Source: Qipengyuania gaetbuli (GTDB lineage: Bacteria; Pseudomonadota; Alphaproteobacteria; Sphingomonadales; Sphingomonadaceae). Taken from it: a stretch of 64,000 nucleotides of DNA. The notes under the pieces are model-generated. The model was given only the letters and a program-made list of their open reading frames with translations, did not search any database and had not been told where the DNA came from. Shown one piece after another: positions 58,620-58,784 of the stretch (positions within the stretch are counted from its first letter, which is position 1; each line of letters opens with the position of its first letter). The position numbers were made by a program, and so were the translations under genes. The stretch is taken from positions 496,001 through 560,000 of the forward strand of contig NZ_JAIVLR010000001.1 in assembly GCF_020524765.1 (NCBI RefSeq), in the 5' to 3' direction.

Positions 58620-58628
58620 TTATCCACA
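58620..58628 (+). promoter_or_regulatory. Perfect DnaA box upstream of ccrM
   Basis: TTATCCACA, an exact match to the consensus TTATNCACA, lies 21 bases before the ccrM ATG. A single box by itself may be chance, but its place in the ccrM leader is suggestive of DnaA control. Confidence 0.6.
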
Positions 58629-58632
58629 GGGT

Positions 58633-58784
58633 GAGTCCAAACGGAGTCCGCGTCAAGCATCTTCCGGGTTGCATATCCGCGGCAGGCACAAGAGCTGAGG
58701 GAGAACGAAAGGAGTCCCCCACAAGATGTTGAGTCTGGCCGGATTCACCGGACTCAAGATGGTGGGGTGTGGCCTCGAAGACTC
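58633..58784. promoter_or_regulatory. Cluster of seven GANTC sites between ccrM and the sulfotransferase gene
   Basis: GANTC occurs at 58633, 58644, 58712, 58731, 58742, 58751 and 58780, seven sites in 152 bp where about 0.6 is expected at random. These are targets of the adjacent ccrM product and the kind of site through which GcrA or methylation state controls promoters in Caulobacter. The cluster serves both divergent genes. Confidence 0.8.

Follow-up and report, generated by a model that had tools for sequence, protein, structure and literature searches.

The ccrM leader of Qipengyuania gaetbuli: a GANTC cluster with a predicted promoter core, a DnaA box and NrdR-like boxes

The window, the whole stretch of 64,000 nucleotides analysed here, carries the gene for the adenine methyltransferase CcrM on its minus strand, with a sulfotransferase gene diverging from it. 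The best NCBIfam model for the methylase is CcrM, at 599.6 bits, under the model cut-off of 830. The nearest named CcrM, among the best 80 of at least 577 named loci, is that of Qipengyuania proteolytica (93%). Relatives of ccrM were found in all 149 of the 149 family genomes searched and, at an E value of 1e-60, in 104 of 144 genomes of the class. The gene rnhB lies in the same direction, at most 3 kb upstream of ccrM, in 73 of the 80 named loci, often with intervening DNA. The features of the locus are as follows.

57448 to 58599, minus strand: ccrM, adenine methyltransferase with N6_N4_Mtase and RAMA domains
58607 to 58611, minus strand: Shine-Dalgarno-like AGGGG before ccrM, read from the sequence
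58620 to 58628, plus strand: DnaA box, exact, TTATCCACA, spanning about -7 to +2 of the predicted promoter
58621 (+/-2), minus strand: predicted transcription start, placed from the position of the -10, giving a 22-nt leader
58628 to 58633, minus strand: predicted -10, CACCCT (C-A-n-n-n-T)
58633 to 58637, minus strand: GANTC abutting the predicted -10, at about -16 to -12 (TTGAC+19)
58644 to 58648, minus strand: GANTC in the predicted -35/-10 spacer, at about -27 to -23
58651 to 58656, minus strand: predicted -35 hexamer TTGACG, from the recurrence of TTGAC-N14-GANTC
58712 to 58716, minus strand: GANTC of the upstream array, with an intact equivalent in 63 of 101 aligned leaders
58719 to 58734, minus strand: NrdR-like box B, ACTCAACATCTTGTGG, overlapping the GANTC at 58731-58735
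58742 to 58746, minus strand: GANTC, a less conserved member of the upstream array, with no consensus site in the 101-leader alignment
58752 to 58767, minus strand: NrdR-like box A, CCCCACCATCTTGAGT, overlapping the GANTC at 58751-58755
58780 to 58784, minus strand: farthest GANTC of the upstream array, with an intact equivalent in 95 of 101 aligned leaders, where N is always G
58853 to 59551, plus strand: divergent sulfotransferase gene (Sulfotransfer_4), a lineage-limited neighbour

We compared the region before ccrM with three sets of leaders. The close set (L001-L110) is mostly Erythrobacteraceae with a few Novosphingobium, and combines 30 loci of the family search with the 80 named loci. 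These two collections share some species, and 102 of the leaders are distinct over their last 150 bp. The rest-of-family set (L111-L190) has 80 leaders, so that 110 leaders (30 and 80) were read from the 149 family genomes with ccrM. The class set has 67 leaders from other alphaproteobacterial families (27 and 40 loci), taken from 101 matching non-family genomes; L191 was dropped as a family member.

An earlier note on this DNA had reported seven GANTC sites in 152 bp directly upstream of the methylase gene. All seven coordinates (58633, 58644, 58712, 58731, 58742, 58751 and 58780) proved exact. The expectation of 0.6 sites given with them holds as a figure for random DNA and fails for this genome, where 0.14 would be expected. 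The own-genome rate of 0.91 per kb was obtained from 237 sites in 260 kb (13 stretches of 20 kb) of the 2.8-Mb genome, and at that rate the Poisson probability of seven or more sites in any one stretch of 152 bp is about 1.7e-10. The runner-up among the 324 kb examined, that is, the window and the 13 sampled stretches, has four sites. Across the whole window, GANTC is about five times rarer than the dinucleotide expectation (63 sites, against a mean of 302 in dinucleotide shuffles).

The enrichment is shared by relatives at every distance considered. The mean number of GANTC sites in the 230 bp before ccrM is 5.8 in the close set, 5.2 in the rest-of-family set and 3.6 in the class set, against 0.21 expected at the own-genome rate, which was applied to the leaders of all genomes; the flanks of L031-L110 have from 0.19 to 1.90 sites per kb. 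No leader of the close or rest-of-family sets is free of GANTC, and in the class set 7 of 67 are, while 60 have at least one site and 49 at least three. The spacings within the array (9-11, 19-20, 29 and 39) correspond to helical phasing, which is also seen in the family; because this is one inherited pattern, it was not used as independent evidence. Conserved GANTC sites thus lie in and beside the predicted promoter in numbers above expectation, as would be looked for in a promoter of the CcrM-methylation type, and the comparison supports the view that the sites look regulatory and belong to ccrM. The presence of GANTC in ccrM leaders is itself already known. One of the sites is adjoined by a conserved block, CTTTCGTTCT (window 58702-58711). 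Inverted GAGTC/GACTC pairs were tried as the mark of a regulon and rejected, being found at 3 places in the genome compared with 9 for the reversed control.

The cluster sits between the two divergent genes, and it had been proposed that the sulfotransferase gene would share its control. That the GANTC and DnaA sites also serve this gene is extremely unlikely: it lies divergently beside ccrM in only 10 of the 80 named loci (L087 among these is a fragment), and the cluster, the promoter core and the DnaA box are conserved in leaders without it. We also looked for close relatives whose leaders lacked both the GANTC cluster and the DnaA box, and found that the two features persist.

The two sites nearest to ccrM belong to a fixed pattern. 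TTGAC-N14-GANTC is present in 108 of the 110 close leaders, 65 of the 80 rest-of-family leaders and 37 of the 67 class leaders; it is absent from 2, 15 and 30, respectively. At other spacings, from 9 to 19, the same two words are found in 0-4 leaders, and shuffled leaders gave means of 0.00, 0.15 and 0.05 in the three sets over 20 rounds. In each of the three sets a further GANTC mostly begins 8-10 bp from the first base of TTGAC. Among the leaders scored, the base directly after the second GANTC is A in 108 of 108 close, 63 of 65 rest-of-family and 36 of 36 class leaders, with T as the fifth base in 99 of 108, 40 of 65 and 36 of 36. For a -10 element placed 17 bp from the -35, this A falls at -11 and this T at -7, and we therefore read the core as a promoter: its predicted parts are a -35 of TTGAC, a -10 of CAnnnT, one GANTC in the spacer between them and one abutting the -10. 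A generic sigma-70 scan found no promoter in the ccrM leader, CACCCT being a poor -10. The core pattern is not enriched across the genome, with 3 matches compared with 4 for the reversed pattern; of the two matches elsewhere, one lies in a coding frame and the other upstream of an unrelated gene, with no A following.

A GANTC between the predicted -35 and -10 is what would be sought in a GcrA-sigma70 promoter. The genome has a GcrA gene (PF07750, above cut-off at C1:630114-630734; the same model also matched one archaeal control genome). GcrA is thought to work with sigma70 at promoters adjoining a methylated site, according to the portion of PMC7987155 drawn on here, and the motif YGAKTCG given there is matched in part by the core GANTC, which reads TGAGTCC on the lower strand and differs in the last base. 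In Caulobacter, a GANTC between -35 and -10 goes with mid-cycle start sites (PMC4287350, in part), and the sections of PMC3708114 used here place ftsZ and mipZ under the control of a site in that interval. The predicted ccrM promoter shares this placement with the GcrA/CcrM sigma70 promoters of those two genes (PMC3708114 and PMC3667746, each in part), but it has a pair of GANTC sites separated by one turn, whose distance from TTGAC is fixed, it meets YGAKTCG only in part, and its target is the methylase itself.

An exact DnaA box, TTATCCACA, starts 21 bp before the ccrM ATG (the gene starts at 58599 on the minus strand), as the earlier note had stated. It is the only exact box in the window, which has three more with one mismatch. 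The exact box is present in 99 of the 110 close leaders and absent from 11; it is found in 19 of the 80 rest-of-family leaders and 5 of the 67 class leaders, compared with rough chance expectations of 0.14, 0.13 and 0.11 leaders, respectively. On this distribution it appears to be mainly a feature of the close clade. In 91 of the 110 close leaders it begins 28 bases after TTGAC. Counting only the 102 distinct close leaders, the core is found in 100 and the DnaA box in 91. The box is thus conserved at a fixed promoter position, as expected of a DnaA-regulated promoter, and a DnaA gene is present in the genome.

In the window the box is predicted to overlie the ccrM start site. Since it would cover about -7 to +2, bound DnaA should block the polymerase. 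The same placement, to the extent that the predicted start is right, argues against the alternative that DnaA activates ccrM from this box. A link from DnaA to CcrM has been predicted in species without CtrA sites (PMC2877005, in part), which is consistent with activation; with a bound protein that should exclude polymerase, we regard activation as quite unlikely and read the box as a site of repression.

In Caulobacter the ccrM promoter is activated by CtrA and has two GANTC sites in its leader. The window shares with it the presence of GANTC next to the ccrM start, with presumed methylation feedback. It differs in having no CtrA box, a DnaA box over the predicted start, a GANTC between the predicted -35 and -10, another five GANTC sites and the NrdR-like boxes described below. 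The earlier note had seen no TTAA-N7-TTAA in the spacer, and there is none even when one mismatch is allowed, so the leader has no such mark of a CtrA-activated promoter. A CtrA-like word, TTAACCAT, is found in 78 of the 190 family leaders and is absent from the window. In the close set it lies 27-29 bases before TTGAC in 56 of 57 cases, with a second half-site, usually imperfect, seven bases upstream. GTTAACC is in none of the eight closest named loci (L031-L038, among the best 80 of at least 577), and L002, of the same genus as the window, has it. A stricter form, TTAR-N7-TTAAC, occurs in 15 of the 110 close leaders, 1 of the 80 rest-of-family leaders and 3 of the 67 class leaders. On a CcrM tree of 81 rows, the CtrA-like word changes at least 14 times, whereas the DnaA box needs at least four changes; the CtrA-like site looks prone to gain and loss, and the GANTC core and the DnaA box look stable. 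Brilli et al. (2010; PMC2877005, in part) found DnaA motifs at ccrM mainly where CtrA sites are missing, and the window agrees in having a DnaA motif at ccrM without a CtrA site. Section 8 of that paper gives no promoter placement and states that control by methylation is not derivable from the counts of sites.

Part of the upstream GANTC array overlaps two 16-bp NrdR-like boxes, A and B, whose centres are 33 bp apart with a spacer of 17 bp; a best spacer of 15-17 bp is given in the part of PMC12051234 consulted. We scored these boxes with a matrix of 15 boxes from family nrdA promoters, which were assigned in this analysis and not from annotation. Box B scored 16.2 bits, compared with a maximum of 15.6 in 1118 background tiles; box A alone scored 8.7 bits, and the pair scored 24.9 compared with a background maximum of 7.5. 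The matrix passes the 99% background level in 15 of 28 nrdA upstream regions, 10 of which are its own source loci. Some of its nrdA boxes overlap the GANTC core, which could bias it towards ccrM, and we therefore built a second matrix from 7 nrdA downstream boxes alone, with a reversed-motif control. With this matrix box B scored 16.4 against 14.5 for the background, and 90 of the 110 close leaders, 19 of the 80 rest-of-family leaders and 22 of the 67 class leaders exceeded the background 99% level, compared with 1, 0 and 1 for the reversed motif. In a separate scan with an NrdR consensus word, the ccrM leader outscored every other 230-bp tile of its locus in 64 of 79 cases. The leader therefore has two boxes about three turns apart that resemble the nrd boxes of the family, the arrangement looked for in a member of the NrdR regulon. 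As an added reading, such boxes may account for part of the upstream GANTC array.

Several results bear on how far this can be taken. The genome has an NrdR gene (TIGR00244, above cut-off at C3:118196), and a word taken from box B, CAANATNTTGTG, is present at 3 places in the genome (control 0), none of them nrdA. Measured from the predicted start, the boxes are some 105 and 138 bp upstream, a long distance for a repressor acting on that promoter; an upstream promoter that covers box B, with a layout like that of nrdA, is possible. In the class leader L209 a near-perfect box, ACACAATATCTTGTGT, lies directly past the end of rnhB and has a partner at a distance of 31 bp. Of the 25 above-background boxes in the class set, 12 lie inside the end of rnhB as judged by a rough reading-frame test, including the perfect-looking one of L253, and protein coding could conserve boxes so placed.

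We read 28 nrdA loci (L266 and 27 others). The genome's own nrdA promoter (L269 2600-2680, equal to C1:1103599-1103679) has a double-GANTC core and, after it, a pair of NrdR-like boxes separated by about 34 bp. Its GANTC sites are at +8 and +19 from TTG and its -10 is CACTAT, the same geometry as at ccrM. TTG-N16-GANTC is found upstream in 13 of the 28 loci, with that of L295 looking like chance, and a double GANTC 11 bp apart in 7 of the 28. The ccrM leader resembles NrdR-controlled ribonucleotide reductase promoters (PMC9110341 and PMC12051234, each in part) in its two 16-bp boxes about three helical turns apart, and the double-GANTC core of the genome's own nrdA extends the likeness. It differs from those promoters in its target, ccrM, and in that its boxes lie upstream of the core, not over the start, and overlap GANTC. 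Tentatively, and with the balance leaning somewhat against it, we suggest that ccrM belongs to the NrdR regulon, that the GANTC overlap would make repression by dATP-NrdR sensitive to methylation, and that methylation would thereby be linked to dNTP supply and fork passage. Such a design, with a core shared with nrdA, would predate many of the splits between alphaproteobacterial orders.

It could be that the GANTC cluster alone represses or activates ccrM through methylation and that the DnaA and NrdR matches are passengers. GANTC enrichment is the most widely shared feature, with at least one site in 60 of 67 class leaders, while the DnaA box is largely limited to a clade and NrdR-like boxes exceed the background in just 22 of 67 class leaders. 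Against this, the place of the DnaA box is kept in 91 of 110 close leaders, the excess of NrdR-like boxes in that set (90 of 110) is met by a single leader for the reversed control, and the N of the upstream GANTC sites varies little or not at all, a constraint that methylation by itself would not impose. We consider the passenger explanation unlikely.

A conserved leader might also act as RNA, through GAGTC/GACTC hairpins or a hairpin over the Shine-Dalgarno sequence. Adjacent GANTC sites are self-complementary, and CCCTGT...ACAGGG spans the ribosome site exactly in 23 of 110 close leaders. In the class set, complementary N pairs are somewhat in excess, all in small numbers: 18 of 39 compared with 12.1 expected at spacing 10-12, 9 of 21 compared with 5.0 at 19-21, and 10 of 21 compared with 5.3 at 28-30. 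The family shows no co-variation of N (80 of 199 compared with 79.1 at 10-12, and 135 of 239 compared with 125.9 at 19-21). No Rfam match came near its cut-off in 57400-60200, where the two matches obtained were far below their cut-offs and outside the leader, and no terminator was found. An RNA element is therefore very improbable; paired-GANTC hairpins in particular were rejected for lack of co-variation in the family, with the class set, small as it is, tending slightly to complementarity. In the window, CCCTGT overlapping the DnaA box complements ACAGGG over the Shine-Dalgarno sequence (58608-58631).

The earlier note had taken the number of GANTC sites and the DnaA box to suggest a wiring different from that of Caulobacter. 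GANTC-rich leaders and the fixed core turn up in many families of the class, so the cluster is no local rewiring and that part of the proposal falls; the part that concerns the DnaA box, together with the missing CtrA-like box, stands. Judged by sequence comparison, the GANTC logic is old; what belongs to the lineage is the DnaA box and the lack of a CtrA box. We think it likely that the cluster as a whole is a ccrM promoter region built to read replication, combining the core, a block by DnaA, a response to GcrA and methylation, and an input from NrdR.

Under this reading, RNA polymerase with the housekeeping sigma factor, probably aided by GcrA, would use the core, at a rate set by whether its two GANTC sites are fully, half or not methylated. 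That GcrA uses methylated promoters is already known. Passage of the fork would alter transcription of ccrM, and CcrM would then reset the promoter. DnaA over the start site would block the promoter early in replication, when active DnaA is high, and on its release CcrM would rise later; plentiful dATP would let NrdR lower transcription from upstream. This lineage lacks the CtrA input proposed for many relatives, so DnaA and methylation would carry the timing.

For the timing of CcrM in alphaproteobacteria without CtrA control, the leader offers separable parts and a widely shared core, and that timing may be read directly from replication. If this holds, the methylase senses at its own promoter the methylation that it makes, and the nucleotide sensor of ribonucleotide reductase may act on an epigenetic enzyme. 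Among the matches listed in a search of titles and the starts of abstracts in the open-access literature, with subscription papers mostly outside it, there was no report of the core or of NrdR at ccrM.

Two variations of the core were seen in the class set. In L192, L194, L226, L232 and L243, a CtrA-type box with at most one mismatch occupies the position of TTGAC or one near it, with a GANTC close by, as if CtrA stood in place of the -35. In L197, L205, L210, L217 and L246, an ATG begins 7-9 bases past the predicted T at -7, and ccrM may be transcribed there as a leaderless message.
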